Below are positions 1 through 17,241 of a stretch of DNA of 37,600 bases, in pieces. Position numbers and translations under genes: made by a program. Position 1 is the stretch's first letter, and every line of letters starts with the position of its first letter. Source of the stretch: Candidatus Gastranaerophilales bacterium (lineage in GTDB: Bacteria > Cyanobacteriota > Vampirovibrionia > Gastranaerophilales > JAILCC01); the NCBI GenBank assembly GCA_028696075.1, contig JAQVHS010000002.1, positions 1 through 37,600 of the forward strand. The letters are read 5' to 3'. The notes below the pieces were generated by a model. That model searched no databases and was not told the origin of the DNA. It was given only the letters and a program-made list of their open reading frames with translations.

Positions 1-3000
1 TTTCATTACCGTCAGAGTAAACGTACGGATCTTCAACAGTTCCTGCGCCTGTGCGTTTGCCGAAAGTTGAATTTGAGATATTTAATAAGGCTGTTGCACC
101 CGTATTATAAATAGCGCCGCCCTGTTGGTTTGTATCTCCCAGAGCCGTATTCTTGTAGAAGTTGGAATCCGTAATTGTAAGTTTTCCGCCGTCGTTGTAG
201 ATAGCGCCGCCGGAAACATTCGTTGCAATATTGTTGTCAAATGTTACATTATCAATAACTACGGTAGAATTTTCACCTTTGATGTTCAAGGCTCCGCCGT
301 CTACTGCCGTCCAGTTTTTGATGGTCACGTCATTGATATTTAAGTTCCAGGTGTCGGCAGAACTTGTTGAATCAACCGCAAATAATGAATAAGCATCATT
401 ACCGTTAAGAATTCCCGTACCTGAAATATTTAATGTACCCTTGTTCATAGCCGGCAGGTTCATATATGCCAAATATTCATCTGTTTGCGCATAACTTCTG
501 GTTCCTGCTGCCATTAGGGCTGCTTTTAACCCATCGGGAATTTCAGTGGCAAATAATATTTTACCGATATTATCACTATGTTTAATTCTATACATAGAAT
601 CAGTAGTGTTAATAATTATATCCTCAAAATCACTCAAACTTATTCCGTTATTGACTGACGAAAGGACAGTTAGTTCTACAGGTGTTAGTATTTCCAAGTC
701 ATTTAAGATATTAAAGTTTGTAGCAATACTTCCGCTTCCGGTTGTTATTGCTAAATTGTCCAGAGTGAGAGTATTTGGCGAAATATCAATCTTTAACGCA
801 GGCGTATCCGCAGCAGTAAAGCCGATAAATTTGATGCTGTCTATTTTACTGTTTTGCAGGTCTAAAACAGAAGCTCCCGACATAGCAAAGTTTATCCCTG
901 TTGCAGGAGCGCCGAAGAAGGTACCGGAATTAGCAAGCTTTAAAGTACCGCCAAAGAGGTTAACAGCGCCGAGATAGCCGGCCATATCAGCGTTAAGAAT
1001 TATAGAGCCTGTGTTATATGTTGCGTTATTGTTGATATTGATAATGCTGGTGGCATTTTCGGAGGTTATTCTGTCGTTAAATATTACTGACTTATCAGAA
1101 TCGGCGCTGATATTAACAGTACCGCCGTTAGTGTGAATGGCGTTGGAGACACTGTTGGCTTTATTGTCTGTGAATTCAATATTTCCGCTGTCGGCAATCA
1201 GGTTGAGTGTTCCTGCATTGTAGATAGCGCCGCCTTTAGTGGCTGCTGTGTTACCTGCAAATATGGAATTACCCTTGATTGTTAAAATCCCCTGATTATA
1301 GATAGCAGCACCATTAGTTGCAGTGTTCCCGTAAAATTTGCTGCCGGATATTGTGTTAGCTGTTGTGTTGGACTGAAAACAAAGAGCTCCGCCCCCGCTG
1401 CCGGCTTGATTGCCGTTGGAATAAACATAAGGGTCTTCAACTGTCCCGGAACCGCTGCGGCTGCCAAATATAGAATTAGAAATGACAGCTTCTGAAGTTG
1501 CGCCCGTGACATAAACAGCTCCGCCGTTGGCAACTGCTGATGTGGTTTTATTATTGTAAAATTTGGTATCGCTAATTGATAATATTCCCGAGCTATAAAT
1601 GGCTCCGGCGCCGGCCGGCGAAGTATTATTATCAAAAACAGAATTATCCCTGATTGTTAGTATTCCCACGTTGTAAACAGCTCCGGCATTATTAGCGCTA
1701 TTGCCATAGAATCGACTGTTTATGATGGTTGCTTCTGAATTGGTAGAATTGAAAATAGCCCCGCCCTGGCTTGTTGTGGCTATATTACCGTCAGAATAAA
1801 CGTATGGGTCTTCGGTTGTACCTGAGCCTGTGCGTTTACCGAATATGGAATTTTCAACGGTTAATTTAGCTGTATGCCCCCAGTTGTAAATAGCCCCTCC
1901 CGCCAAGGCTTGATTGTTATAGAACTCAGCTCCCGTAATAGAAACTTCAGCTGCAGCGTTATAAAAAGCTCCTGCGGTATTGTTGGATATATTATCCCGG
2001 AATATTGCATTATCGTTTATTGTTAATGCTCCTGCCGTATAAACGGCTCCGCCCACATTTGTGGCTGTATTACCTGCGAAAACAGAGTTACCGTTTATAG
2101 TTAATGGTCCCGATGCATTGTATATTGCTCCGCCGTCGTTTGCTTTGTTACCGTAAAATTGGCTGTTTGTTATAGTGAAGCTTGCTGCATTGTTGTTATT
2201 AATCGCGCCGCCCCGTCTGGTTGTTTCGTTACCGTCAGAATAAACGTATGGGTCTTCGGTTGTACCTGAGCCTGTGCGTTTACCGAATATGGAATTTGTA
2301 ATTGTCAGCCCTGATGTTTCACCCGTATTATAAATAGCACCACCGTTTTTGCTTGCAGCGGTTGCTTTGTTATTATAAAATTCAGCACCTGTTAATGATA
2401 ATATACCACTATCGTTATAAATCGCTCCGCCACTGCCTGTTGCTGTGTTACTAGTAAATACGCTGCCATTAACTGTTAAGTTTGAGCGATTGTAAATCGC
2501 CCCGCCGCTATTGCTCGCTTCATTACCGGCGAATATAGAGTTGCCGTTTATAGTTAATGGTCCTAATGTATATATTGCCGCGCCGTCATTTGCCTTGTTA
2601 CCGTAAAATTGGCTGTCTGTTATTGTTATAGTGGCGACTGCTGTATTGTTGTTAAAAATTGCTCCGCCGTTTCTGGTTGTTTCGTTACCGTCAGAGTAAA
2701 CGTATGGGTCTTCGGTTGTACCTGAGCCTGTTCGTTTACCGAATATGGAATTTGAGATTGTCAGCCCTGATGTTGCACCCGTGTTATAAATCGCGCCGCC
2801 GTCTTTGTTTACGCCAGTTGTTTTGTTGTTGTAAAATTCCCCGTCCGTTATTGATATTGTGCCGTTGTCGTTATAAATCGCCCCGCCGCTATTGCTCGCT
2901 TCATTACCGGCGAATATAGAGTTGCCGTTTATAGTTAATGGTCCTAATGTATATATTGCCGCGCCGTCATTTGCCTTGTTACCGTAAAATTGGCTGTCTG

Positions 3001-3943
3001 TTATTGTTATAGTGGCGACTGCTGTATTGTTGTTAAAAATTGCTCCGCCGTTTCTGGTTGTTTCGTTACCGTCAGAGTAAACGTATGGGTCTTCGGTTGT
3101 ACCTGAGCCTGTTCGTTTACCGAATATGGAATTTGAGATTGTCAGCCCTGATGTTGCACCCGTGTTATAAATCGCGCCGCCGTCTTTGTTTACGCCAGTT
3201 GTTTTGTTGTTGTAAAATTCCCCGTCCGTTATTGATATTGTGCCGTTGTCGTTATAAATCGCTCCGCCAAAATTAGATGCAATATTTCCGCCAAAAACGG
3301 AGTTGCCGTTTATGGTCAATGCCGAGGCATTATAAATCGCCCCTCCGCGACCCAAACCGCCTATTAAACTGGCGTTGGCTGCAAAGGCAGAGTCTGTGAT
3401 TGTCATTGAGCCTATGTTATAAATCGCCCCGCCGGAATTGGTGGCGCTATTAGCATAGAAATTTGAACTCGCAATATTTACAGTACCATTGTCATTGTAA
3501 ATGGCACCTCCGTTTGTTAATTTATTACCGTCAGAGTATACATAAGGGTCTTCAACAGTACCCGAACCTGTGCGCTTACCGAAAGTAGTATTGTTGATTG
3601 TCAGAGTTCCGGAGCTTTTGTTCTCAATAGAGCCGCTGTTTGTTAGCTTGATATTGTTAAAGTTCAAATTCCCGTAATTACTGAAAAGCCTGTAATTGGT
3701 TGTTGTACCGCTAAGAGTATACCCGTTGCCGTTTAATGTAGCATCTGTGCTTGAAGTTGTTGTTAATGTATCTGCAGCAGTGATGTCTAAGTCTAAAGAC
3801 ACAGTTTCATTATTTAGAATGCCGTTTTTTAAATCATTCCAATTATCCACAGCCAAAGCAGACTGCGTTGTGAAACCTAGTCCTAATGCAACCGCAGATA
3901 GTATCGCGCAATATTTTAATTTGTTATGTTTGTATTTGGACAT
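1..3943 (-). CDS. Giant PMP-type (GGAIYN repeat) secreted surface protein, 5' part, truncated by window edge
   Basis: One reading frame stays open on the minus strand from the ATG at 3943 to the left edge, at least 1,314 codons, so the C-terminus is not seen. Residues 1-31 form a signal peptide: lysine-rich start, hydrophobic core, and a cleavage site after SALA. The mature part is a string of beta-helix repeats with GGAIYN followed some 15 residues later by FYxN or FxxN, the pattern of Chlamydia polymorphic membrane proteins (Chlam_PMP). A segment GKRTGSGTxEDPYVYSDGN recurs seven times. Around 490-1030 the repeats give way to a non-repeat stretch, after which a second passenger-like repeat block starts. 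PMPs are usually autotransporters, but no beta-barrel can be checked here. No clear ribosome binding site precedes the ATG. The role is probably adhesion or surface display (inference). Confidence 0.85.
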   Translation of the reverse strand, partial: MSKYKHNKLKYCAILSAVALGLGFTTQSALAVDNWNDLKNGILNNETVSLDLDITAADTLTTTSSTDATLNGNGYTLSGTTTNYRLFSNYGNLNFNNIKLTNSGSIENKSSGTLTINNTTFGKRTGSGTVEDPYVYSDGNKLTNGGAIYNDNGTVNIASSNFYANSATNSGGAIYNIGSMTITDSAFAANASLIGGLGRGGAIYNASALTINGNSVFGGNIASNFGGAIYNDNGTISITDGEFYNNKTTGVNKDGGAIYNTGATSGLTISNSIFGKRTGSGTTEDPYVYSDGNETTRNGGAIFNNNTAVATITITDSQFYGNKANDGAAIYTLGPLTINGNSIFAGNEASNSGGAIYNDNGTISITDGEFYNNKTTGVNKDGGAIYNTGATSGLTISNSIFGKRTGSGTTEDPYVYSDGNETTRNGGAIFNNNTAVATITITDSQFYGNKANDGAAIYTLGPLTINGNSIFAGNEASNSGGAIYNRSNLTVNGSVFTSNTATGSGGAIYNDSGILSLTGAEFYNNKATAASKNGGAIYNTGETSGLTITNSIFGKRTGSGTTEDPYVYSDGNETTRRGGAINNNNAASFTITNSQFYGNKANDGGAIYNASGPLTINGNSVFAGNTATNVGGAVYTAGALTINDNAIFRDNISNNTAGAFYNAAAEVSITGAEFYNNQALAGGAIYNWGHTAKLTVENSIFGKRTGSGTTEDPYVYSDGNIATTSQGGAIFNSTNSEATIINSRFYGNSANNAGAVYNVGILTIRDNSVFDNNTSPAGAGAIYSSGILSISDTKFYNNKTTSAVANGGAVYVTGATSEAVISNSIFGSRSGSGTVEDPYVYSNGNQAGSGGGALCFQSNTTANTISGSKFYGNTATNGAAIYNQGILTIKGNSIFAGNTAATKGGAIYNAGTLNLIADSGNIEFTDNKANSVSNAIHTNGGTVNISADSDKSVIFNDRITSENATSIININNNATYNTGSIILNADMAGYLGAVNLFGGTLKLANSGTFFGAPATGINFAMSGASVLDLQNSKIDSIKFIGFTAADTPALKIDISPNTLTLDNLAITTGSGSIATNFNILNDLEILTPVELTVLSSVNNGISLSDFEDIIINTTDSMYRIKHSDNIGKILFATEIPDGLKAALMAAGTRSYAQTDEYLAYMNLPAMNKGTLNISGTGILNGNDAYSLFAVDSTSSADTWNLNINDVTIKNWTAVDGGALNIKGENSTVVIDNVTFDNNIATNVSGGAIYNDGGKLTITDSNFYKNTALGDTNQQGGAIYNTGATALLNISNSTFGKRTGAGTVEDPYVYSDGNE
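2493..3254. repeat. Exact tandem duplication, 381 bp x 2, inside the PMP-type gene
   Basis: Bases 2493-2873 and 2874-3254 appear identical wherever I compared them, and identity runs a few bases past the second copy. The period of 381 is 127 codons, so the reading frame is kept and the protein gains one repeat module. Perfect identity next to otherwise diverged repeats points to a very recent duplication, or to an assembly effect. Confidence 0.9.
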
Positions 3944-4053
3944 AATTCAAGTTCATTTTGGGGGACAACAAGTAAATAACGTTAACAGCGGCTTATCAAC
4001 TAATTATTAATAGCTATAGTTATACACATGTAGTATATGCCACAATATAACCT
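3935..4053 (-). promoter_or_regulatory. Leader/promoter region of the PMP-type gene (copy 1 of a duplicated leader)
   Basis: Minus-strand leader just upstream of the ATG at 3943. It carries a TATACT -10-like hexamer near 4034-4039, a TAACGTTA palindrome near 3977-3984 and a CCCCC tract near 3961-3965. The block is repeated with changes at about 5425-5547, which marks it as a conserved unit. No good -35 is visible. Confidence 0.5.
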
Positions 4054-4361
4054 AAAAAAAACGTTTATTTGTATTAAGAAAGTTACAAAAATACTCCGTT
4101 TAGACTACCAGCCTTAAAAAATCTTAACATAAAAATTAAAAATTACAAATAAAATGATAATTATCATTCCAATATGAAAGTGCAGTAAAATATTTATTTA
4201 ATGAATTAACAAAACTTTTTTTAAACGTATCCAAAAATAGTTACCCGCCTGTGCAAGTGTTTTGTTGAAAAAACATTAAAATCGGGATTTTTAAACTTAT
4301 TATATTCGTGAAATTATTCACACAGTTTGACTTGAGGGGTTGTTGGTTGTAGTCTTAACTT
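3944..4361. other. Gene-free spacer between the divergent PMP-type and radical SAM genes
   Basis: This 418-bp very AT-rich spacer holds the PMP leader on its left and a 16-bp perfect palindrome at 4153-4168. The right part has AT-rich promoter-like sequence (for example TTATTATATT near 4298-4307) before the gene at 4362. I see no coding sequence in it. Confidence 0.6.
4153..4168. promoter_or_regulatory. Perfect 16-bp palindrome, Fur-like operator candidate
   Basis: AATGATAATTATCATT is a perfect palindrome with overlapping GATAAT and ATTATC hexamers, the words that make up Fur-family boxes. It is shorter than a canonical 19-bp Fur box. It sits between the two divergent promoters, so it could act on either gene. 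The assignment rests on sequence resemblance only. Confidence 0.35.
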
Positions 4362-5312
4362 ATGGAAAATAAAACGGTTCGGGTATGTCATTTTGCCAAG
4401 TTAAAAATACGCTGCAACGGCGATATTTATCCTTGCTGTGCGGTGCCTGCCGACCAAAAATTAGGCAATATTTTTAACGAAAACATTTTTGAAAAAATAG
4501 AAAACACAGACGTAATTTGCGAATGCGAAATGTTCAAATCCGTAGCCCGCAATGCAGATGACCGCCCTAATTTGAATTATATTCATTTTGAAACGTCGAA
4601 TGTTTGCCAGGCGTCTTGTGTTTGTTGTCCTCAAAAAAAGGAAAAACTTCCGAACGAAGAGGCTCATATGCAAAAAATAAAAGAATTTATTGAACACTAC
4701 AAGCCGCGTAATGTTATTGCAATCGGCGGCGAGATTCTTGTCCAGAAAAATTCAATGGAAATGCTTTTTGCATTCAAATCCAAATATCCGGATATGCAAT
4801 TCCATACGATTACGAATTTGTCTGTATCAGAGCTGATTGTGAAGCAGGCGGAACAGATTTTTGATAAGATGACGGTTTCTATGCTCGGGTTTCAGCCTGT
4901 GACTTATAATTTTGAAATGGGTCTGGATTTGGACATTACTATGCGGAATTTTAACTGTCTTTACGAGAATAAAAAAGTTCGTCTGTCGCCTAAATACCTT
5001 GCTATGCCGACAAATTTGCCGGAACTGCCGTTATTTTTCGATTGGGCGGTAAAACTTGATGTCGAAAAAATTTATCTGCATAATATCCACGAGTTCAAGA
5101 GAGTTGCCCAAACAGCTGATAAATACTGGGTTACAACGTTTGCAAAGCTTGAAAAAGCAATGAAAAAGGTTTTTCAAGAAAATTCAGACTTGATTAGGGG
5201 CAAAAACCGCCATTTTATTTCGATTCACCCGCTTCTTGCCGAATTCATAAAAATTGACGAACAATTTATTAAAGAAAACGGTTTTGAAAAAATTGTTTGT
5301 ATAGCAAAATAG
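4362..5312 (+). CDS. Radical SAM protein with N-terminal SPASM-like cysteine cluster
   Basis: This 316-residue protein has the radical SAM cluster motif CxxxCxxC at C82, C86 and C89, and a GGE motif at 122-124, which in this superfamily contacts the methionine carboxylate of S-adenosylmethionine. Residues 9-58 look like an SPASM/auxiliary cluster domain placed before the radical SAM core: C9, C18, the pair C25-C26, then GNI, and C53-x-C55. In known SPASM enzymes this domain is normally C-terminal. The substrate is unknown; SPASM proteins often modify peptides or enzymes, but no precursor peptide gene is visible beside it. The gene stands alone between the two copies of the PMP leader. The start is the first ATG of the frame, with only a weak GAGGGG element far upstream. 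Confidence 0.75.
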   Translation: MENKTVRVCHFAKLKIRCNGDIYPCCAVPADQKLGNIFNENIFEKIENTDVICECEMFKSVARNADDRPNLNYIHFETSNVCQASCVCCPQKKEKLPNEEAHMQKIKEFIEHYKPRNVIAIGGEILVQKNSMEMLFAFKSKYPDMQFHTITNLSVSELIVKQAEQIFDKMTVSMLGFQPVTYNFEMGLDLDITMRNFNCLYENKKVRLSPKYLAMPTNLPELPLFFDWAVKLDVEKIYLHNIHEFKRVAQTADKYWVTTFAKLEKAMKKVFQENSDLIRGKNRHFISIHPLLAEFIKIDEQFIKENGFEKIVCIAK

Positions 5313-5424
5313 GATATTAACGATTTTGGCGCCGGTTATCAGAATAATTTCCAATCCTTTGGCGAATGTGTATCCAAAAAAAAGTTGTCAGAGAACAATT
5401 CCGCACTCATAACGAATTTTGTAT

Positions 5425-5547
5425 TTGGGTATAATTTAAATTCATGGCTTTTTTGGGGGAAATAACAGGTAAATAACGTTAACAGCGGTCTATCTATTAT
5501 TAATGGCTGTAGTTATACACATATAGTATACGCCACAATGTAATCTA
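5425..5547 (-). pseudogene. Orphan copy 2 of the PMP-gene leader with lost start codon
   Basis: On the minus strand this aligns with the leader and first codons of the PMP-type gene (3935-4053), sharing TAACGTTAACAGCGG and the TATACT-to-TATAACTA block. Where copy 1 reads ATGTCCAAATACAAA, this copy reads ATACCCAAATACAAA, so the start codon is gone and homology ends directly after. It looks like the 5' stub of a deleted or rearranged paralogue. A displaced leader duplication is the alternative. Confidence 0.6.
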
Positions 5548-5549
5548 AT

Positions 5550-5703
5550 TGGCTGCATCCGTCAAACTACGCAATCAGAGATTGCTTGTTTGTCGTAGTG
5601 CTCAAACCCACTGACAAGGCAAAGCCTTGTGCGGGTTCAAACCCCTCGTACATAAAAAACAAAAAACTGTCTTATGACAGTTTTCTCTGTTTTTAGATTA
5701 GGA
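5550..5703. repeat. Structured direct repeat, left copy
   Basis: This matches 8196-8351 nearly base for base, apart from a few differences near the terminal hairpin. It contains nested hairpins: GCAATC-AGA-GATTGC enclosed by ACTAC/GTAGT, ACAAGGC-AAA-GCCTTGT enclosed by AACCC/GGGTT, and ACTGTC-TTAT-GACAGT near the right end. In the right copy the last hairpin is the tRNA-Ser terminator, so this copy probably began as a duplicate of tRNA-downstream sequence. Confidence 0.85.
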
Positions 5704-5777
5704 TATTGTAGTTACGCTAGCAATAGTCTCTCTTGAAATGTTTTTACAGGTTCCTCCACTTAGTGTTTATTTGGACT

Positions 5778-5920
5778 AAATTCCCTGATAACTGCCATTT
5801 TACCGGGAATTTTTCAATTTTTACAGTGAATCAGGAAAATTATAGCAAATTTTACATAATCTACATAAGCATTTAATGGGAAATTCCCTAAACCAATTAA
5901 CAGGGAATTAGCAGGGAAAA
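5778..5920. promoter_or_regulatory. Cluster of GGGAATT words, operator or iteron candidate
   Basis: AAATTCCC (5778-5785) pairs with GGGAATTT (5805-5812); GGGAAATTCCC is a perfect palindrome at 5878-5888; AGGGAATT (5902-5909) and CAGGGAAAA (5912-5920) follow. Such a cluster upstream of a gene start suggests binding sites for one protein, but none is identified. Confidence 0.35.
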
Positions 5921-6006
5921 TAATGGCTGCCATAAATATACTGTTAAACTACTTGTTTTAAATTCTATTATTATCATGGATTAAAGAAAAACAAGGAGAA
6001 ATTATT

Positions 6007-6515
6007 ATGGTATGTTCACTAAGAAATGCAATGCAAAGAATTATGGGTAAAGATAAATCTTACCTACATTATTACAAAAGGATTATAAAAGATTATGAAA
6101 GAGGTAATTGGAATTTTGACATAAGAATTTTAATTACAAAGTCGATGTGCCTTGCCCTATTTCTGTTGCAAGAAGGGGATACAAGAAACAATTTTGCTTA
6201 AGCATAATCGATTTTGAAAAATTTAGAGTAGAATATGAAAAATATTTAAATGAATATTTATACCCATGGCAGTATGTCAGAAAAAATAAAATTATTGCCC
6301 GCAAAACTTGGATTAAAAAACATGGTTATATCACTAAAGGTAATCAATATTGCCAAAAATCGATGTATGATTGTACAAAATGCCTTAATAGAACCGCTTG
6401 TGAAGTTGCAAAGAAACATACTAATAATGAACCGGCGATGCTTAAAATGACAAAGATGTTGGAATTATTATATGGAAATTTACAATCTGGTCATTATGCT
6501 AGTTTAATTGATTAA
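6007..6515 (+). pseudogene. Frameshifted gene of unknown function (about 169 residues if repaired)
   Basis: The reading frame starts at the ATG at 6007 after a good AAGGAG site and runs into TAA at 6201. A second frame overlaps it and continues to 6515. Between about 6117 and 6140, adding one base after AGA would join them into a continuous protein reading NFDIRNFNYKVDVPCP. This points to a one-base deletion or read error in the AAGAATTTT stretch. The product has a lysine- and tyrosine-rich middle and four cysteines in its second half (KSMYDCTKC, then RTACE), perhaps a metal site. I recognise no family. It lies inside the repeat-bracketed islet. A programmed frameshift is possible but no slippery heptamer is evident. 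Confidence 0.6.
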
Positions 6516-6614
6516 GTTAAACCTTTTAATAAATGAGAGTAGTCTTATACATGAATAATAACAAATACATTTAGAAAGTAAATTCATTTCTTTAAACCGT
6601 ACTTGTTTAGCGGG

Positions 6615-7835
6615 TTATATCTCCCCCACCGGCACAATATTTATCTCTCTGTTCAAAGGCAATATTTTATCATAAAGGCAAATAACTGCGCCTTTACCGA
6701 CAGGTTTTCCTAATTTTTCAAGCACTTTGAACGACGAAATATTTTTTCGCAACGGGGCAGCTGTTTTTTTAACTTCAACAGGATATAAAGTGCCATCTGT
6801 GTCAAATACAAAATCGATTTCCTGTTGGTTTGTGTCTCGATAAAAATATATATTTGGGGTTTTACCGTTGTTCCAATAGGATTTTAAAATTTCGGCAAAA
6901 ACATAAGTTTCAAAAATTGCTCCGTTCATTGCCCCGTTTGCAAGAGTTTTTGGAGTATCCCAACCGGTTAAATAAGCACACAAGCCGGTGTCCAAAAAAT
7001 ACATTTTGGGTGTTTTGATTATTCGTTTTGTAATGTTGTTGTAATAAGGATACAAGAACTTAATTAACCCTGATGTTTCAAGAATTGATGCCCAAGCTTT
7101 TGCAGTCTTCACATCAATATCAACATCGCGTGCAATATCTGTATAATTAATCAACTGCCCTGTGCGTGCTGCAATTGCTTTTAAGAAATTTAAAAACTGA
7201 ATTTCATCGCCTATTTTGGTAATGTCTTTAACATCGCGTGTGATATAAGTTTGCACGTATGAACTGTAAAATATATCTCGGGGCATATCTTTGTCTGAAA
7301 GCAGTTTTGGGAAAGAGCCTCTAAAAATAATTTCATAAACCTCATTAATATCAAGCGGCTTTGTTTTTAATTTAATTCTATTTTCAATCCATTCGTCAGT
7401 CGGCAAAAAGGCGCTGGAATGTTCAATATTATTTGTCAATTCAGGATATGAAATTCCAAGCATATCAATAATCGCAACCCTGCCTGCCAGTGTTTCTGTG
7501 ACATTTTTCATTAAATGGAATTTTTGCGAACCCGTGAGCCAAAATGCTCCCGGCTGCTGATTTTTATCAACATGCATTTTAATATATGAAAATAATTCAG
7601 GTGCATATTGAACCTCGTCAATAATTAGCGGAGGCTTATGAATTTGTAAAAACAACCCCGGATCTTCTTTTGCAAGGCGTCTTTGCTCTAAGTCATCAAG
7701 TGTGACATACTCGCGCTCAGGCGCTAGAGTTTCCAGTAAAGTAGTTTTTCCAACCTGTCTTGGACCTGTGATAAGAATTACGGAAAAATGTTTTGATATT
7801 TCAAGTATAGTTTTAGAGAGTTGACGTGGTAACAT
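6615..7835 (-). CDS. AAA_14/DUF4143 ATP-binding protein
   Basis: This 406-residue P-loop ATPase has Walker A GPRQVGKT at residues 24-31, Walker B LIIDE at 70-74 and a sensor-like WLTGSQ about 30 residues later. The C-terminal half ends in a DUF4143-like segment with YRDTNQQEIDFV and PVEVKK, resembling a PD-(D/E)XK nuclease-like fold. Proteins of this class are common accessory genes of uncertain role. The frame extends upstream to 7880, but the AGGAGG six bases before the ATG at 7835 fixes that start. A promoter overlapping a perfect palindrome lies just upstream, suggesting operator control, perhaps autogenous. It sits within the islet bracketed by 154-bp repeats. Confidence 0.85.
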   Translation of the reverse strand: MLPRQLSKTILEISKHFSVILITGPRQVGKTTLLETLAPEREYVTLDDLEQRRLAKEDPGLFLQIHKPPLIIDEVQYAPELFSYIKMHVDKNQQPGAFWLTGSQKFHLMKNVTETLAGRVAIIDMLGISYPELTNNIEHSSAFLPTDEWIENRIKLKTKPLDINEVYEIIFRGSFPKLLSDKDMPRDIFYSSYVQTYITRDVKDITKIGDEIQFLNFLKAIAARTGQLINYTDIARDVDIDVKTAKAWASILETSGLIKFLYPYYNNITKRIIKTPKMYFLDTGLCAYLTGWDTPKTLANGAMNGAIFETYVFAEILKSYWNNGKTPNIYFYRDTNQQEIDFVFDTDGTLYPVEVKKTAAPLRKNISSFKVLEKLGKPVGKGAVICLYDKILPLNREINIVPVGEI

Positions 7836-7860
7836 TTGTGCCTCCTGATTCTTGACACAA

Positions 7861-7899
7861 TTTAGTTTAATATGGAGCATAATTCCATATTAAACTAAA
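7861..7899. promoter_or_regulatory. Perfect 16-bp inverted repeat, operator candidate
   Basis: Arms 7861-7876 (TTTAGTTTAATATGGA) and 7884-7899 are exact reverse complements with a 7-base spacer. No T-run follows on the minus strand, which argues against a terminator. The right arm covers the -10 box of the promoter for the ATPase gene, so a bound protein would block transcription. Confidence 0.65.
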
Positions 7900-7914
7900 A
7901 ATACCAAAAGTCAA
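7887..7914 (-). promoter_or_regulatory. Sigma-70-type promoter of the DUF4143 ATPase gene
   Basis: On the minus strand TTGACT (7914-7909) and TAATAT (7892-7887) are separated by 16 bases, close to consensus. The predicted start lies inside the palindrome, about 45 bases before the ATG at 7835. Confidence 0.6.
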
Positions 7915-7941
7915 GTTCTAATTATTCAAAATTTTTAATTT

Positions 7942-8115
7942 TTACTTTGTATAAATTTGATCATGATATAATACTGGATTTGCCACACCTTTCTTTGTAT
8001 ATTCGGCAGGAACCCTTTTATTGAAAAAATAATTCTTTATTTTTTCAGGAGCATCTACTTCTGAAAATTCATAACGCTCGCCTCCATTTACAGGATGCCA
8101 ATATTGCATTTCCAT
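7942..8115 (-). CDS. Small unknown protein, 57 residues
   Basis: The ATG at 8115 follows an AAAGGAG ribosome binding site at seven bases, and the frame ends in TAA at 7942. The product begins MEMQYWHPVNGGERYEF, is rich in charged and aromatic residues, and has no signal peptide or membrane segment. I recognise no family. It lies upstream of the DUF4143 ATPase gene on the same strand. The ATPase has its own promoter in the 106-bp gap, so the two are not clearly one operon. The strong ribosome site and protein-like composition support a real gene. Confidence 0.65.
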   Translation of the reverse strand: MEMQYWHPVNGGERYEFSEVDAPEKIKNYFFNKRVPAEYTKKGVANPVLYHDQIYTK

Positions 8116-8159
8116 AATAATTTACTCCTTTCATTAAATTCGGAGAGGAGGCAGGCACG

Positions 8160-8195
8160 TTGTTTGAGTAATCGCGTTGCTCAACTCAAACTCAC
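8160..8195. other. Short inverted repeat beside the right structured repeat
   Basis: GTTTGAGT and ACTCAAAC form a perfect 8-bp inverted repeat around AATCGCGTTGCTCA. It directly precedes the right copy of the structured repeat and has no counterpart at the left copy. Confidence 0.5.
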
Positions 8196-8351
8196 TGGCT
8201 GCATCCGTCAAACTACGCAATCAGAGATTGCTTGTTTGTCGTAGTGCTCAAACCCACTGACAAGGCAAAGCCTTGTGCGGGTTCAAACCCCTCGTACATA
8301 AAAAACAGAGAGAACTGTCTTATGACAGTTTTCTCTGTTTTTAAATTAGGA
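8196..8351. repeat. Structured direct repeat, right copy, abutting tRNA-Ser
   Basis: Near-identical to 5550-5703 with the same nested hairpins. Its right end overlaps the last three bases of the tRNA-Ser gene (TCC on the minus strand), as an attachment-site duplication at a tRNA 3' end would. No integrase lies between the copies. Confidence 0.85.
8303..8340 (-). terminator. Rho-independent terminator of tRNA-Ser
   Basis: Arms 8303-8319 and 8324-8340 pair over 17 positions, with one G-T wobble, around a 4-base loop. On the minus strand the stem is followed by a run of T, and it begins 8 bases after the tRNA 3' end. Confidence 0.8.
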
Positions 8352-8435
8352 GAAGGTGGGATTCGAACCCACGGTGCGCTCGTCACGCACGACGGTTTTC
8401 AAGACCGCTCCTTTAAACCACTCAGGCACTTCTCC
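8349..8435 (-). tRNA. tRNA-Ser (anticodon UGA)
   Basis: An 87-base minus-strand gene: acceptor arms GGAGAAG/CTTCTCC pair fully, the anticodon loop is CTTGAAA with anticodon TGA (reads UCA), and a long variable arm and GGTTCGAATCC T-arm are present. CCA is not encoded. The gene carries its own promoter and terminator. Confidence 0.95.
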
Positions 8436-8452
8436 GATTGGGCTTTAAGTAT

Positions 8453-8480
8453 ATAATACAATAAGAAAATATTTTTGCAA
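8453..8480 (-). promoter_or_regulatory. Promoter of tRNA-Ser
   Basis: On the minus strand TTGCAA (8480-8475) and TATTAT (8458-8453) are 16 bases apart, about 17 bases before the mature tRNA 5' end. Confidence 0.55.
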
Positions 8481-8541
8481 TATTAATCCCGTTGCAAAAA
8501 TCAGAAAAATTTGTCTTTTGTGCTATCCTTAGTGAGGACAG

Positions 8542-9453
8542 ATGACGAGTGGCGAAAATATGGAAATAAATGTTTGTTTTGCATCGGATGATAATTACTC
8601 GCAGCATTTGGCTGTAGCTATTGCATCTACGCTTTTAAATACGGCAAAAGATGATTTTATAAACTGTTTTATTATAGATGATGGCATAAGTAATGAAAAC
8701 AAAGCTAAAATTGCAGAAATTTCAAAGTTTGCACCTTGCCGAATTACGTATGTAAAAATCAACCCCGAAGACTTCAAAGGATGTTATTTGCCTGAGGGAG
8801 TGCATTTTACCATGGCTACTTTTTATCGTTTAAAAGCGCCTTCACTTTTTCCTGATATTGATAAAATTATTTATCTTGACTCGGATATGATTATACAAGG
8901 TTCTTTGGCGACTTTGTTTGACAAAGATTTGGCTGATTATTACGTTGCAGGTGCAAGAGATATTTTTGCTTTGGATGAAAACAGTATATATATCAATGCA
9001 GGGATGTCTATGTTTAACCTTGCTAAAATGCGCCAGGACAACGTAGAGGATGCGCTTTTAGACTACGTTAGGAACAATGCTACAAGCTGCCCGGACCAGG
9101 ATGCGATTAATGTCGTGTGCAAAGGTAAAATTTTGCCTGTTGAATTAAAATGGAATAATCAATGCATGAAGGTTTATCAAACTACTGACCCCTCTGTCAA
9201 AACCAAAAAGACAGAAAAAACTCAGATTTTGCACTTTATAGGCAAATGTAAGCCTTGGCAGCATAAAGGGCATTATGAGCAAAAAGTTATTTATTATCAC
9301 TATTTGAATAAAACACCTTTTGCTGATTTTAAAACAAAATATTTGCAATGGATTGAAAATATTATAACAGCTGCTTTTTGTTTTTACGAAGAAGGCGACC
9401 ATTATAAATACAGGATTTTTACGTTGAAAGGCAAAATAAAAAAACGTAAATAA
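8542..9453 (+). CDS. Glycosyltransferase family 8 protein
   Basis: This 303-residue protein follows the GT8 plan (lipopolysaccharide glucosyl/galactosyltransferases, glycogenin): an N-terminal nucleotide-sugar half beginning INVCFASDDNY, a DxD metal site (LDSD, around residues 112-115), the YINAGMSMFNL acceptor-side motif, and the C-terminal HFIGKCKPW motif whose histidine joins metal binding in the family. It probably adds a hexose from a UDP-sugar to a cell-surface glycan. The annotated ATG follows GAGGAC; an ATG six codons later (8560) would match the usual GT8 N-terminus better. A terminator follows the gene. Confidence 0.85.
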   Translation: MTSGENMEINVCFASDDNYSQHLAVAIASTLLNTAKDDFINCFIIDDGISNENKAKIAEISKFAPCRITYVKINPEDFKGCYLPEGVHFTMATFYRLKAPSLFPDIDKIIYLDSDMIIQGSLATLFDKDLADYYVAGARDIFALDENSIYINAGMSMFNLAKMRQDNVEDALLDYVRNNATSCPDQDAINVVCKGKILPVELKWNNQCMKVYQTTDPSVKTKKTEKTQILHFIGKCKPWQHKGHYEQKVIYYHYLNKTPFADFKTKYLQWIENIITAAFCFYEEGDHYKYRIFTLKGKIKKRK

Positions 9454-9476
9454 CACATATATTTATTATAAACTTT

Positions 9477-9512
9477 AAAAAGAGGCTACCGTTTTTGGGG
9501 CAGCCTCTTTTT
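9477..9512. terminator. Bidirectional terminator between GT8 gene and convergent small gene
   Basis: AAAAAGAGGCT and AGCCTCTTTTT form a perfect 11-bp stem with a 14-base loop. T-runs occur on both strands, so it can end the GT8 transcript and the converging minus-strand gene at 9529. Confidence 0.8.
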
Positions 9513-9528
9513 AATTGAAAAAATTATT

Positions 9529-9855
9529 TTAAATTCTTATTTCGTTTAAAAGGTAGTTTGCTATCCATTGGAAATCATTGTTTAATATTGAAGCTTCTTC
9601 AATGAATGATACGCAAGAAACACCTATTCTGATTAAGCACATTGCGCACAAACCTCTGGTTATACCCTTAGAAGTTTGCATATGTTCTATCATTTCGGGA
9701 ACGAACTTTAAACCTTTTGCTACGATTTCGTTCTCGATTTTATTTTTTAAAGTCGGTTCTGCTTCTGATGCTCTTTCCATAAGTTTTTCGAATTCTGATT
9801 TTAAAGCTTCGCTTTTGTAAAAACTTATGGGATTGTTTTCTAATAGTGCCTGCAT
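9529..9855 (-). CDS. Small helical (HEAT-like) protein, unknown function
   Basis: A 108-residue soluble, acidic, apparently all-helical protein. The segment VPEMIEHMQTSKGITRGL and the following CLIRIG resemble one HEAT/armadillo helix pair, but this is only a resemblance. The ATG at 9855 follows an AGGAATAA ribosome site. It is transcribed divergently from the gene at 10032, with a 21-bp operator-like palindrome between them. No partner or pathway can be named. Confidence 0.6.
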   Translation of the reverse strand: MQALLENNPISFYKSEALKSEFEKLMERASEAEPTLKNKIENEIVAKGLKFVPEMIEHMQTSKGITRGLCAMCLIRIGVSCVSFIEEASILNNDFQWIANYLLNEIRI

Positions 9856-9931
9856 GACTTATTCCTGTACTACTCTGATATTATTTTTGATTATACATGC
9901 AAAAATTCCCTGAATACGATTTCCTTACATA

Positions 9932-9952
9932 ATCTTTATACGATATAAAGAT
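9932..9952. promoter_or_regulatory. 9-3-9 palindrome in divergent promoter region
   Basis: ATCTTTATA-CGA-TATAAAGAT is a perfect inverted repeat between the divergent small genes at 9855 and 10032. Its size suits a dimeric repressor. No regulator is identified. Confidence 0.4.
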
Positions 9953-10031
9953 GTAACAAAAAAATAATTCAGGTAGCAAATTTTTGCTGTTTTACGGTTT
10001 AATATTCCACAGGTAGCTTAATAAGGATTCC

Positions 10032-10250
10032 ATGCCGTTTATGATTAATGAGTATGGTCAATTCAATTACGAACAAGATTCTAATGGCGCTTACAGTTAT
10101 TTTTTGGAAAAGTTTATTGACAAAGCAGGTAAAGACGCATCTATCGCTAAAATTAAAGATGAGATTTTAGAATCTGATTGCAGCCAAGAAGACCCCGGCA
10201 TTATTGAAAAAGCCAAGGTCCATCTTAGAAATTTTATAAACGAAAAATAA
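10032..10250 (+). CDS. Small unknown acidic protein, 72 residues
   Basis: The ATG follows AAGGAT at a suitable distance and the product is a charged helical protein beginning MPFMINEYGQFNYEQD, with no membrane segment. A second in-frame ATG lies three codons on. It ends four bases from the stop of the convergent Bax-inhibitor gene. I recognise no family. The ribosome site and protein-like composition support it being real. Confidence 0.55.
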   Translation: MPFMINEYGQFNYEQDSNGAYSYFLEKFIDKAGKDASIAKIKDEILESDCSQEDPGIIEKAKVHLRNFINEK

Positions 10251-10253
10251 TTT

Positions 10254-10997
10254 TTAATTTCTTCTTGAAGCAAACTTTGATAAAAGCTTCAGCATTTCTA
10301 TATATAGCCATACAAGTGTTACAAGCAATGCAAAACCGCCGTACCATTCCATATATTTTGGCGCATAAGATTGTACACCTCTTTCTATAATATCAAAGTC
10401 CAAAAGAAAATTAAAAGAAGCAACACCCACAACAAGCAGGCTGAAACCTATTCCTATCATGCCCGATTCATGGATATACGGTACGCTTTTGCCAAAAAAG
10501 CTCAAAATCCAGCTTGCCAAATATACTATTAAAATTGCGAAAGTTGCTATCATAACACTTGCACGGAATTTATTATCAACTTTGATAATCCTTGACATAT
10601 ACAAAAACAGCATCGCCATCATAGCTGCCAAAGATAAAGCTATCGCTTGCAGTACAATTCCGCTGTAACTTGCTTCAAACATTGAAGAAATCGCCCCGAG
10701 TGCAAGCCCTTCGCATGCTGCATATATAGGGGATAAAAAAGGTGCTGCTGTGGGTTTAAAGGAAATTATAATTGCAAGAATAAACCCTACAATCAAACCG
10801 CCAAACATTAACCCCTGAGCCATAAGCATTTGTCCTGTTGCATAGGCATTCCAGGAAAATGCCCCTGCAAGAATTAATATTGCCATTAAAAGAACGGTCT
10901 TTAAAATAGTACCGTCAACTGTCATCGGGATGCTGTCAGCAGTAACATACTGTGCATTTTGACTAAATGTGTTTTCATTTAAAACCGGTGTACTCAT
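10254..10997 (-). CDS. Bax inhibitor-1 / YccA family membrane protein
   Basis: A 247-residue protein with a soluble N-terminal tail of about 27 residues and then about seven hydrophobic spans. It resembles the bacterial YccA-like branch of the Bax inhibitor-1 (TMBIM) family; the last span ends in a lysine- and arginine-rich tail. Family members are inner-membrane proteins linked to calcium leak or to control of the FtsH protease, but the role here is unknown. AAGGAG precedes the ATG. It is last in a minus-strand operon, 13 bases after ispD. Confidence 0.8.
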   Translation of the reverse strand: MSTPVLNENTFSQNAQYVTADSIPMTVDGTILKTVLLMAILILAGAFSWNAYATGQMLMAQGLMFGGLIVGFILAIIISFKPTAAPFLSPIYAACEGLALGAISSMFEASYSGIVLQAIALSLAAMMAMLFLYMSRIIKVDNKFRASVMIATFAILIVYLASWILSFFGKSVPYIHESGMIGIGFSLLVVGVASFNFLLDFDIIERGVQSYAPKYMEWYGGFALLVTLVWLYIEMLKLLSKFASRRN

Positions 10998-11010
10998 AAA
11001 TTATCTCCTT

Positions 11011-11679
11011 TTATTTTTTGTCATTTAATAATATTTCTGCAAACAGGATATCTTCTTTGGTTGTTATTTTAATGTTTTGATAACTTCCTTCGCTTATAAA
11101 AACGTCATGTCCTGATTTTTGGAATAAATAACTGTCGTCTGTTGCGTTTTCACCTTGGAATTTTATATGTGCTTCTAAAATATCCTTATATTTAAAAATT
11201 TGCGGGGTCTGAATATTGTATAAACCTTCGCGATTTATATTATCTGTGATTCTTCCGTTTTTATCAACTCTTCTTATAGTATCTTTTGCAGGAACGGCGC
11301 AAATAGCGCTGCCCTTTTCTTTTGCAAGGTTGAGCGCTTTTATAATCATTTCTTTTGTGGTTAACGGTCTTGCCGCATCTGCAATCGCCACAAAATCAGG
11401 GCTTGAACATTCCTTCAGCCCGTTCAAAACGGATTGTTGTCTGGTTTCTCCGCCTAAAATTACTTTTGAATGAGAAATATGAGAGGTTAAACTCTTTATT
11501 TCTTCCAAAAAATTTGACGAGGTGCAAATAATTATCTCATCAAACAAAGCCGTTTCTGTATATACGTTCAAAGCGCGTTCTATAACGCTTATACCGGATA
11601 TTTTTTCAAGCAGTTTATTAAGGTTTCTATCATATCTTGAGCCGCTGCCTGCTGCTGTTATTATCAAGCTTGCTTTCAT
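11011..11679 (-). CDS. ispD: 2-C-methyl-D-erythritol 4-phosphate cytidylyltransferase
   Basis: This 222-residue enzyme joins CTP and MEP to give CDP-methylerythritol in the non-mevalonate isoprenoid pathway. The family marks are present: the nucleotide loop AAGSGSRY at residues 9-16, GGETRQQSVLNGL, DAARP, VPAKDTI, QTPQIF and NIKITTKED near the C-terminus. Length is typical for IspD, with no fused IspF domain. It is the middle gene of the GT2-ispD-BI-1 operon, 16 bases from the upstream gene and 13 from the downstream one. The ribosome site is weak (CAGG). Confidence 0.93.
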   Translation of the reverse strand: MKASLIITAAGSGSRYDRNLNKLLEKISGISVIERALNVYTETALFDEIIICTSSNFLEEIKSLTSHISHSKVILGGETRQQSVLNGLKECSSPDFVAIADAARPLTTKEMIIKALNLAKEKGSAICAVPAKDTIRRVDKNGRITDNINREGLYNIQTPQIFKYKDILEAHIKFQGENATDDSYLFQKSGHDVFISEGSYQNIKITTKEDILFAEILLNDKK

Positions 11680-11695
11680 ACTTTTGCCTGTCAGG

Positions 11696-13048
11696 TTATA
11701 TTACTTCGTTTGTGGCAACTTCGACGGCAGCTTCGACCTGTTTTACAGGTTTAATACTTTCATTTTCCAGCCCGTGAGAAGTTTTACCCCAGTTCATATC
11801 GCGTTTAAAGATAAGTATTTTGAACACAATCCAGGTTACAAGCGGTATCCATAAAACCACCATGTATATACCGGTAATTATTGCTTGTCCTATTGCTTTA
11901 AAAACCGGTTGTTTGTCATATTTTCTTAAGGAATAAACAATTCCGAGGAAGAAGAACAAGCAAATACCGACCCCTACAGCAGCTGTTGAAAGTAAGTGAT
12001 TTTCATAACCTTTCATATATTTAAGACTTTGTACAATTATACTGCCGACTAAAAGAACAGGAATTACAAACTCTAACATATAAGCAAGCATATCAAAACT
12101 CGCGCGGAGTGAAATTACTTCTGATGTTGCAACGTCTACACAGTAATCAAGGTATCTTCTTATGGAACCTTCTACCCATCTGCGGCGCTGTTTTAACAGC
12201 GGAATCGGTTTTAAAATCGCTTCTTCGTAGACTTCGCCTATAGGACAGTATCTTATTCCCCAGCCGTTCAAATGAAGCTTTGTAGACAAATCCAAATCGT
12301 CCGTAATTGTATTATTGTTCCAGCCGTCTACTTCTAAAAGCGCAGCCCTTTTTATCAGCTGCCCGTTGCCTCTCAATTCTACGGCTCCGTTAATGCTGTC
12401 ACGGCTCAGCTGCAAGTGATTGTCAAGAGTGTATTCGTTGTTTTGGCAGGCGGTAAGAATATTTAATTCTTTATTGATTATAATTTTTCTTGCCTGTACC
12501 GCACCTACTTCTTCCGGGGCAAGGTAAGGCAAAAGAACCTTTAAAAAATCCTTTTTCACTCTTGCATCAGCGTCAAAAACACATATAACATCAGCATTTG
12601 TCAAAGCTAAAGCATCGTTTAATACTGCGGATTTTCCGGGGAAAGCGTCTTTATCTCTTATAATCGCTTTTACTTTTCCGCCGTAATTTTTTTCAACTTC
12701 TTTTATTACTTTTGCTGTATCATCATCACTTCTATCGTCAATTACAAAGATTTCAAACTTTTCATAATCAATGGCTGCAATGTTTTCAATGGTTTTTTCA
12801 ATAACGGTTTCTTCGTTATGAGCAGGAATCATTATACATACTGTAGGCTCATAATCTAAATTAAGCCGTTGAGGTTTTTTTCTTAGTCTTCGGTCCTGAT
12901 GACTAAATGCCGCCGTTGTGAAAATTGTATAAAGTACAAGCAGGAAAGTTACTATAAACAGGGATTGTACAGGGATTACAAACCTTACTAATTCTATCAT
13001 TGACCATATTACTGTTATTATTGCTAATAAAACTAATCTATCTCTCAT
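11696..13048 (-). CDS. Membrane-bound glycosyltransferase family 2 (processive type)
   Basis: This 450-residue protein has two N-terminal membrane spans, a cytosolic GT2 catalytic domain and three or four C-terminal spans. Catalytic landmarks are in order: VIDDRSDDD, FDADARV (the DxD metal site), TDDLDL (general base region) and QRRRW. This D,D,D,QxxRW arrangement marks cellulose/hyaluronan-synthase-like enzymes. RRRWVEGSIRRYLDY after the QxxRW motif recalls the cyanobacterial glucosyl-diacylglycerol synthases, so a glycolipid synthase is one candidate and a polysaccharide synthase another; I cannot decide. GAGGT precedes the ATG. It is first in the operon with ispD and BI-1. Confidence 0.85.
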   Translation of the reverse strand: MRDRLVLLAIITVIWSMIELVRFVIPVQSLFIVTFLLVLYTIFTTAAFSHQDRRLRKKPQRLNLDYEPTVCIMIPAHNEETVIEKTIENIAAIDYEKFEIFVIDDRSDDDTAKVIKEVEKNYGGKVKAIIRDKDAFPGKSAVLNDALALTNADVICVFDADARVKKDFLKVLLPYLAPEEVGAVQARKIIINKELNILTACQNNEYTLDNHLQLSRDSINGAVELRGNGQLIKRAALLEVDGWNNNTITDDLDLSTKLHLNGWGIRYCPIGEVYEEAILKPIPLLKQRRRWVEGSIRRYLDYCVDVATSEVISLRASFDMLAYMLEFVIPVLLVGSIIVQSLKYMKGYENHLLSTAAVGVGICLFFFLGIVYSLRKYDKQPVFKAIGQAIITGIYMVVLWIPLVTWIVFKILIFKRDMNWGKTSHGLENESIKPVKQVEAAVEVATNEVI

Positions 13049-13186
13049 TTTTACCTCAAAGTATTCATAAAATATTTTACTAAATTACTATAGTACATAA
13101 TACCTCAAGCACAAAATAAAAGCGAAAATGTAATTTTTCTTAAATCCAAAGTAACTCAAAAAATGTTTGTGCTAATATTTTACATG

Positions 13187-13192
13187 TATAAT
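13187..13192 (+). promoter_or_regulatory. Putative -10 box of the lysS-leuC transcript
   Basis: A perfect TATAAT lies 25 bases before the lysS start, with no convincing -35. The site is inferred from position and sequence only. Confidence 0.4.
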
Positions 13193-13217
13193 AAATTAAA
13201 TCTATCTGGAGGATAAA

Positions 13218-14717
13218 GTGTCAAACGAAACTGTAAACAAAACAGATTCAGTCAGAGAGTCAAGAATACAAAAATTAACGGAATTAGTGGAGAATGGAAT
13301 TAACCCTTATCCTTATACGTATGACAGGAATGCATGCGCGCAAGAGCTTCAGGCAAAATATCAAGACCTTGAAGCAGGAACAGAAACAGAGGATACATAC
13401 CACGTAGCGGGCAGAATTATGGCAAATCGCAATAACGGTATGTTTATGGACTTGATGGACAGTTCGGGGAAAATTCAAATTTTTTGCCATAAAGACAATT
13501 TAAACGAAGATAAATTAAAACTTTTAAAACTGCTTGATATCGGTGATATTTTAGGTGTAATGGGAACGGTTCGCCGCACACCCAGAGGTGAATTGAGTAT
13601 TAAGGCAAAGGATATTAAAATCCTTGCCAAATCTTTGCAGCAGCTGCCTGAAAAATTCCATGGTCTGACCGATAAAGAAACGCGCTACCGCCAGAGATAC
13701 CTTGATATGATTGTTAATAAAGAAGTCAGAGATACCTTTAAAAAACGCTCTAAAATTGTTCAAAAGATAAGAGAATATTTAACGAATGAAGGTTTTCTGG
13801 AAGTTGAAACCCCTATGCTCCAAACTATAGCAGGCGGTGCAACTGCAAGACCTTTTACAACACACCACAATGCGCTTGATATGCAAATGTTTTTAAGAAT
13901 TGCTCCGGAACTCTATTTAAAGCGTTTATTGGTTGGCGGATTAAGTGAAAAAATCTTTGAAATAAACAGAAGTTACAGAAACGAAGGACTTTCGCCGAAA
14001 CATAACCCTGAATTTACTATGTTAGAGCTTTATCAGGCTTATGTTGATTATAATGAAATGATGGCTCTTGCCGAAAATATGATAAGTTCTATCGCTCAGG
14101 ATGTTTTAGGTACAATGAAAATAACTTTTCAGGGCAGAGAAATCGACCTTACCCCGCCTTGGGACAGAATGACTATGCTTGGCGCTATTAAGCAATATAC
14201 AGGGGTTGATTTTACCGATAAAATTACGCTTGAAGAAGTGCAGGCGGAAGCCAAAAAAATGGGAGTTGATGCCGATGACTGCGAAAATTGGGGAAAGACA
14301 TTAGACAGAATTTTTGAAGAAAAAGTTGAACCAAAGCTGATTAACCCTATCCATATTATTGATTATCCCCGTGATATATCGCCTTTGGCAAAACCTCACA
14401 GAGATAACCCCCGTTTAACCGAAAGATTTGAAACCAGAATTAACGGTTGGGAAGTTGCGAACGCTTTTTCCGAACTTTCAGACCCGATAGACCAGAGAAG
14501 AAGGTTTGAGTTTCAAGCGGAGGCAAAAGCTAAAGGTGATGACGAAGCTTGTGAGATTGATGAAGATTATATCAATGCGCTTGAGTACGGAATGCCTCCG
14601 GCGGGCGGATTAGGTATAGGTATTGACAGACTTATAATGCTGCTTACCGATTCACCATCCATACGTGATGTTATAGCATTCCCTACCATGCGTAAAAATT
14701 TGGATAAAGTTGACTAG
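13218..14717 (+). CDS. lysS: Lysyl-tRNA synthetase, class II
   Basis: This 499-residue enzyme charges tRNA-Lys. An N-terminal OB-fold anticodon domain (about residues 60-150) is followed by the class II core: GGATARPF and RIAPELYLKRLLVGG, then the motif 2 region FEINRSYRNEG, and motif 3 GGLGIGIDRLIML near the end, followed by RDVIAFPTM. Length is normal. The start codon is GTG, fixed by a strong GGAGG seven bases upstream. leuC begins 24 bases after the stop with its own ribosome site, so the two are probably co-transcribed. Confidence 0.97.
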   Translation: MSNETVNKTDSVRESRIQKLTELVENGINPYPYTYDRNACAQELQAKYQDLEAGTETEDTYHVAGRIMANRNNGMFMDLMDSSGKIQIFCHKDNLNEDKLKLLKLLDIGDILGVMGTVRRTPRGELSIKAKDIKILAKSLQQLPEKFHGLTDKETRYRQRYLDMIVNKEVRDTFKKRSKIVQKIREYLTNEGFLEVETPMLQTIAGGATARPFTTHHNALDMQMFLRIAPELYLKRLLVGGLSEKIFEINRSYRNEGLSPKHNPEFTMLELYQAYVDYNEMMALAENMISSIAQDVLGTMKITFQGREIDLTPPWDRMTMLGAIKQYTGVDFTDKITLEEVQAEAKKMGVDADDCENWGKTLDRIFEEKVEPKLINPIHIIDYPRDISPLAKPHRDNPRLTERFETRINGWEVANAFSELSDPIDQRRRFEFQAEAKAKGDDEACEIDEDYINALEYGMPPAGGLGIGIDRLIMLLTDSPSIRDVIAFPTMRKNLDKVD

Positions 14718-14741
14718 AGAACTGTTAAGGAGAGAACTGAT

Positions 14742-17090: not shown

Positions 17091-17241
17091 TACTTACCTT
17101 TATATTTTAAGGCATAATAAGCCCTCGTATTTATAAATAAAAACAAAAAAAATGCATTTATTGCCGATTTTAGCAGATTTAATTTTTATAAATTACATGT
17201 TTGAGATAAAATCAACTTGGTTCAAATATGAGGAAGTGGCT

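Follow-up and report, generated by a model that had tools for sequence, protein, structure and literature searches.

A full SPASM domain carries seven cysteines for two auxiliary clusters, and the SPASM/twitch signature opens with CX9-15GX4C. The GGE motif has a SAM-binding role. An arrangement with the module in front of the radical SAM core is described by the NCBIfam model NF033640 (N_Twi_rSAM, ‘twitch domain-containing radical SAM protein’). In the review PMC9012708, SPASM/twitch domains are described as C-terminal extensions; the auxiliary-cluster domain of BtrN and MoaA is C-terminal there, and the role proposed for its cluster is to take up the electron of the substrate radical or to hold the substrate.

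A literature search returned no study of the reversed order, with the module in front; most subscription-journal papers lay outside this search, which makes the result weak evidence of absence. The literature covered did not mention NF033640, and nothing in it joined radical SAM, SPASM and circular permutation.

The gene and its radical SAM core

The open reading frame at 4362-5312 (+ strand) of the window, i.e. the whole stretch of 37,600 nucleotides that was analysed, runs from ATG to stop and encodes a radical SAM protein of 316 residues. The features of the locus are as follows.

4362..5312, + strand: radical SAM gene with an N-terminal SPASM/twitch-type module (open reading frame, Pfam and NCBIfam matches, eight further homologues)
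4386..4526, + strand: N-terminal SPASM/twitch-type module, C9 to C55 (PF13186 at residues 11-59, invariant cysteines, modelled hairpin and helix)
4578..5252, + strand: predicted radical SAM barrel, residues ~73-297 (DSSP of the model, PF04055 at 77-180 below the gathering score, fold matches)
4605..4628, + strand: CX3CX2C motif C82-C86-C89 with the extra invariant C88 (sequence; nine of nine homologues)
4725..4733, + strand: GGE motif G122-G123-E124 (27-row alignment)
3955..4056, + strand: direct repeat of ~100 bp, upstream copy (one of two copies in the genome)
5451..5548, + strand: direct repeat of ~100 bp, downstream copy, 83% identical (one of two copies in the genome)

The first-pass annotation had read the protein as a radical SAM enzyme with a SPASM-like part before the core, and the residues that it listed (C9, C18, C25, C26, C53, C55, G35-N36-I37, C82, C86 and C89) all lie where it had placed them. 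Apart from its own gene, the protein matched nothing in the 1.84-Mb source genome at E ≤ 1.

When the window protein was compared with Pfam, the Radical_SAM model PF04055 matched residues 77-180 with 25.4 bits against a gathering score of 29.5. The same model was found in all nine homologues, the window protein included, at E ≤ 0.01 (best 1e-9). The core fragment alone had TIGR04317 as its best NCBIfam match, with 29 bits against a cut-off of 380. The CX3CX2C motif (C82/C86/C89) is present and is invariant both in the nine homologues and in all 27 rows of an alignment that includes 25 viral proteins. Position 88 is a cysteine in the family versus S, T, M or I in the 25 viral rows. In the same alignment, G122 and G123 are invariant and position 124 is E or D in 27 of 27 rows. 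After C89, no cysteine is conserved among the nine homologues.

An AlphaFold model computed from the 27-row alignment had a pLDDT of 84.5 and a pTM of 0.84, and DSSP assigned to it an alternating strand-helix barrel from residue 73 onwards. The barrel matched those of DesII (8hzv; Z 14.4, rmsd 4.4, 224 residues aligned), PFL activase (8fo0; Z 14.1, rmsd 4.0, 209 aligned), and MoaA (1tv7; Z 13.6, rmsd 4.4, 220 aligned); the fold matches to DesII and MoaA suggest that the protein adopts the partial or full TIM barrel of the radical SAM superfamily. Predicted phage radical SAM proteins matched the model at length, the best TMq being 0.64 among the 50 matches listed (A0A6J5L3D5, rmsd 5.8, 321 columns). 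By sequence, phmmer gave no match among solved structures, and a nine-row profile matched only NifB (6y1x, E 0.003), in the barrel; thus, neither search found a solved structure for the front module.

The front module and the order of the two parts

The results of the profile searches showed that the 81-residue N-terminal fragment matches Pfam SPASM (PF13186) at residues 11-59 with 26.9 bits (E 5.9e-6), above the gathering score of 21.5, and that the whole protein reaches 21.5 bits, i.e. exactly that score. The best NCBIfam match of the fragment was the SPASM model TIGR04085, with 19.2 bits and below the cut-off of 27. Pfam SPASM was found in seven of the nine homologues and Radical_SAM in nine of nine at E ≤ 0.01, and the order of module and core is common to all nine; the SPASM-type module before the core, as proposed in the first-pass annotation, was thereby borne out.

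The cysteines C9, C25, C26, C53, C55, C82, C86, C88, and C89 are invariant in the nine homologues, and the spacing CX15CC...CxC of the module is kept across them. Thus, five of the cysteines originally assigned to the module stand (C9, C25, C26, C53 and C55), whereas the sixth, C18, varies. The stretch C9-X10-G20-X4-C25 has the spacing with which the SPASM/twitch signature opens. In the 27-row alignment, C25, C26, C55, C82, C86, and C89 are found in every row and C9 in 26 rows. C53 is a cysteine in only two of the 27 rows of this MAFFT alignment; its pairing with a viral CxxC is seen in the profile alignment alone.

The N-terminal cysteines could have arisen by chance, or belong to a disordered cysteine-rich tail rather than to a SPASM-type module, and the first-pass annotation had named a missing SPASM-profile match together with predicted disorder as what would speak against its reading. 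The model gave a divided answer. Two strands (13-16 and 21-24) forming a hairpin and a helix (42-48) are predicted within residues 13-48, whereas residues 1-9, 27-29, and 57-66 have a pLDDT below 50, and the blocks with C9 and with C53/C55 have mean pLDDT values of 41 and 49, respectively. Furthermore, a run on a two-row alignment gave a pLDDT of 50.6, with residues 1-70 at 24-35; the confidence of the 27-row model depends on an alignment in which viral proteins supply the N-terminal signal. The score of PF13186 on the whole protein, only just at the gathering score, and that of TIGR04085, below its cut-off, point in the same direction. However, a chance or disordered tail is difficult to combine with a cysteine spacing conserved nine-way, with a fragment scoring above the Pfam gathering score, with the modelled hairpin and helix, and with the co-linear profile match to viral N-twitch proteins given below; we regard it as extremely improbable.

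With five conserved cysteines rather than the seven of a full SPASM domain, the module is putatively of the twitch type, i.e. of the shortened form with one cluster, which its cysteine pattern fits. One auxiliary cluster beside the radical SAM cluster would then be expected in the window protein, as in BtrN and MoaA; the difference is that the domain is N-terminal in all nine homologues and C-terminal in those two enzymes. The SPASM enzymes anSME, PqqE, and SuiB, whose SPASM domain is C-terminal, are recognized by the same Pfam model PF13186 as the front module, but have the opposite order and the seven module cysteines of full SPASM against the five conserved here. The front module is also similar to the SPASM part at the C-terminus of two Lachnospiraceae proteins of the usual order (hhalign probability 97.4%, E 1.2e-11, 43% identity over 51 columns), a match that is biased upward, since both proteins were found with degenerate patterns including NG[DN][IV]YPCC.

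Of the NCBIfam models, NF033640 matched the whole protein best (31.1 bits, E 1.3e-7, against a cut-off of 170) and was found for all nine homologues at E ≤ 0.001. The arrangement in the window protein is the same as in this model: the twitch module, with CX..GX..CC and a later cysteine pair, comes first and the radical SAM core second. None of the proteins in 60 relatives or in 14 control genomes passed the NF033640 cut-off. Usable reading frames of other proteins of the bacterial order were obtained from 11 of 24 loci; in eight of these 11 (L008, L011, L013, L015, L016, L017, L018 and L028) the cysteines or module precede the core, and three (L009, L010 and L024) have the usual order. Six of the eight front-cysteine proteins were scanned: L008, L011, and L015 matched NF033640 with 56-64 bits, L013 matched it in the core only (26.4 bits), and in L016 and L018 it was not among the best 25 NCBIfam matches.

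Viral contigs gave 56 loci with relatives when scanned with a wider alignment; scans with the single protein and with a narrower alignment found no relative in them. The core lies at position 111 or later in all 56 viral ORFs, and CX8-16GX3-5C stands before it in 26. Four of the six viral relatives scanned passed the NF033640 cut-off (L108 with 412.5, L111 with 357.6, L109 with 247.7 and L117 with 190.9 bits), and L083 (70.3 bits) and L093 (64.9 bits) were below it. An alignment of viral proteins only, built from 25 of the 56 ORFs (the same 25 as in the 27-row alignment), contained Pfam SPASM in 16 and Radical_SAM in 24 of its members at E ≤ 0.001. Since the 27-row alignment includes the window protein and a comparison with it is not independent, the window family was compared with the viral-only alignment. 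The two were co-linear over 272 columns, with a probability of 99.2% and an E value of 2.8e-19 in the profile comparison. Unlike the viral N-twitch proteins, the window family lacks ~13 residues before the cysteine pair, and its module ends in C53-E-C55 where theirs ends in CxxC, the two pairs facing each other.

The first-pass annotation had presented the order as the reverse of the usual one and had suggested that the enzyme might be independently built. An order unusual enough to count as a discovery is not supported, given that NCBI curates the order, that viral relatives pass the curated cut-off, and that most readable proteins of the bacterial order are front-loaded. An independent origin is unsupported because the family aligns co-linearly with viral proteins of the same order of parts. 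The reversed order is thus real, yet it is a recognized arrangement, of which the window protein is a divergent representative that scores below the curated cut-offs. Many viral contigs encode proteins with this order, and several proteins of the bacterial order have it as well, despite the C-terminal placement described in PMC9012708. The window protein contributes a single divergent example, with a small family of limited spread.

Spread, gene neighbours and the putative substrate

The results of the homologue searches showed matches at E ≤ 0.001 in 37 of 286 genomes of the bacterial order. Only six of the 286, the source genome included, matched at E ≤ 6.2e-116; the next best value was 5e-12. 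A profile search found the protein in nine of 383 sampled genomes of the order at E ≤ 1e-30, in five of 52 genera. In a sample of the phylum, three of 386 genomes matched at E ≤ 1e-15, all of them within the same order. The close family is thus narrow. The other eight homologues are 47-62% identical to the window protein. Three other genomes of the host's own family (97, 87 and 66% complete) gave no match. A search of genome contigs with the single protein found no relative; the corresponding profile search gave, among the matches listed, one homologue (L040, 56% identical) and the two Lachnospiraceae proteins of the usual order. L040 is probably the same sequence as L034.

The protein is quite probably a radical SAM enzyme with a catalytic [4Fe-4S] cluster and one twitch-type auxiliary [4Fe-4S] cluster in front, and a divergent member of the N-twitch branch. 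Judging from the motif and the modelled fold, C82, C86, and C89 would hold the catalytic cluster, which would cleave SAM to give the 5'-deoxyadenosyl radical. The short N-terminal twitch module would hold the auxiliary cluster, most likely via C9, C25 (or C26), C53, and C55, the residues that conservation points to. By analogy with the C-terminal counterparts in BtrN and MoaA, this cluster would most likely serve either to relieve the substrate radical of an electron or to hold the substrate. The protein appears to belong to the same superfamily branch as the curated N-twitch proteins (NF033640), as a shorter and divergent form below every NCBIfam cut-off seen.

At five of the nine loci (genera g34 and g45), the gene begins 4-11 bp downstream of a gene for a 597-residue GTPase on the same strand. 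The one of these GTPases that was scanned, in L034, passed the TypA_BipA cut-off (914.8 versus 757.3 bits), and the other four were taken as TypA/BipA because their starts are near-identical. The possibility exists that the enzyme modifies the translation machinery and is tied to TypA/BipA. However, at the other four loci, that of the window included, the gene is not beside typA, and the typA of the source genome lies on another contig without this gene adjoining it. As the five linked genes are confined to two genera, a single ancestral placement could account for the linkage. We therefore rejected typA as a general, obligatory partner, since it is found at only five of nine loci, and consider the tie to TypA/BipA very unlikely indeed.

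The remaining neighbours vary. The G314 homologue has an overlap of 4 bp with a gene for a dGTP triphosphohydrolase, and those of G328 and G354 stand beside other genes. The window gene and an open-ended surface-protein gene, which is at least 1314 codons long and carries repeats of the Chlamydia-PMP type, are divergently oriented. The surface-protein gene (2-3943, - strand) has a signal-peptide-like start, and two internal copies of 300 nt in it were reported to be 100% identical. An EamA transporter gene follows the radical SAM gene at three loci; a functional link between them was rejected because 96 of the 286 genomes of the order encode the transporter (E ≤ 1e-70) and the source genome lacks a match to it at E ≤ 1e-10. 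Since the neighbours differ between loci, the context does not name the substrate.

We also compared 696 small ORFs (15-120 residues, within 2.5 kb of the nine loci). No shared precursor peptide was seen among the best-shared 25, all of which lay within typA and none of which came from the window; for very short peptides, E 0.001 is out of reach in this comparison, and distant precursors are outside its range. These results bear on the possibility that the protein is a RiPP-type maturase modifying a peptide or protein, with the front module also binding a leader peptide. Such a function is suggested by lesser NCBIfam matches at E ≤ 0.001 to StsB (eight of nine homologues) and HxsC (six of nine), and by the RiPP maturases SkfB and SuiB among the fold matches. 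However, all these matches are far below the curated cut-offs, and neither the small ORFs nor the differing neighbours favour it; we consider a maturase unlikely. For the N-twitch enzyme proposed above, the substrate would rather be a small molecule, or a protein encoded far away, than a peptide encoded at the locus, because there is no constant neighbour and no visible precursor peptide.

It is also conceivable, albeit quite improbable, that the narrow family is a separate functional class. Its minimal front module (CX15CC...CxC) and extra core cysteine (CX3CxCC) would then support a type of reaction that the C-terminal SPASM/twitch enzymes are not known to carry out; in view of the typA and dGTPase neighbours, its target might be a component of translation or of nucleotide metabolism.

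Arrays of reading frames with CxxxCxxC were observed elsewhere. At L039 (G192:C1:14000-33000), positions 375-17435, ten ORFs with the motif at 95-117 occur in ~17 kb, interleaved with other genes, some of them membrane-protein-like. Five of these ORFs were scanned: Pfam SPASM was N-terminal in two, and Radical_SAM was found in four, one of them just below the gathering score. The viral contigs L097, L108, L111, L112, and L131 each have two to four adjoining ORFs with the motif at position 110 or later.

History of the gene and repeats around it

In the gene tree, the two g32 proteins split from the other seven with a support of 100/100, the root being a midpoint root only. The window protein groups with the g34, g45, and g43 proteins of another family; the order inside this group is not settled. 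A direct repeat of ~100 bp, of which the genome has two copies, flanks the gene on both sides (3955-4056 and 5451-5548, 83% identical). The tree, the missing matches in the host's own family, and the bracketing repeat are compatible with acquisition by transfer or with a local rearrangement, without proving either. The upstream copy of the repeat lies just upstream of the surface-protein gene, which starts at 3943 on the - strand.

A phage or plasmid origin was considered and rejected: in a tblastn search, neither the 50,697 phage records nor the 72,556 plasmid records contained a match to the protein. The relative L015 had no match in the phage records. In PHROGs, a match of 17.2 bits (E 0.0038) was obtained.

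Downstream of the gene, the window ORFs 6007-6201 and 6147-6515 overlap in different frames, and could together represent a single gene split by a frameshift; ORF 6147-6515 matched no Pfam family at E ≤ 0.01. A stretch of ~160 bp occurs twice in the window, at 5542-5703 and 8188-8351 (120 nt at 98%, then 50 nt at 90%), and the second copy reaches the 3' end of a tRNA-Ser gene (8348-8435, - strand). Between the two copies lie a gene for a DUF4143 AAA ATPase (6615-7880) and small ORFs. The ~160-bp pair could mark an inserted element at the tRNA gene.
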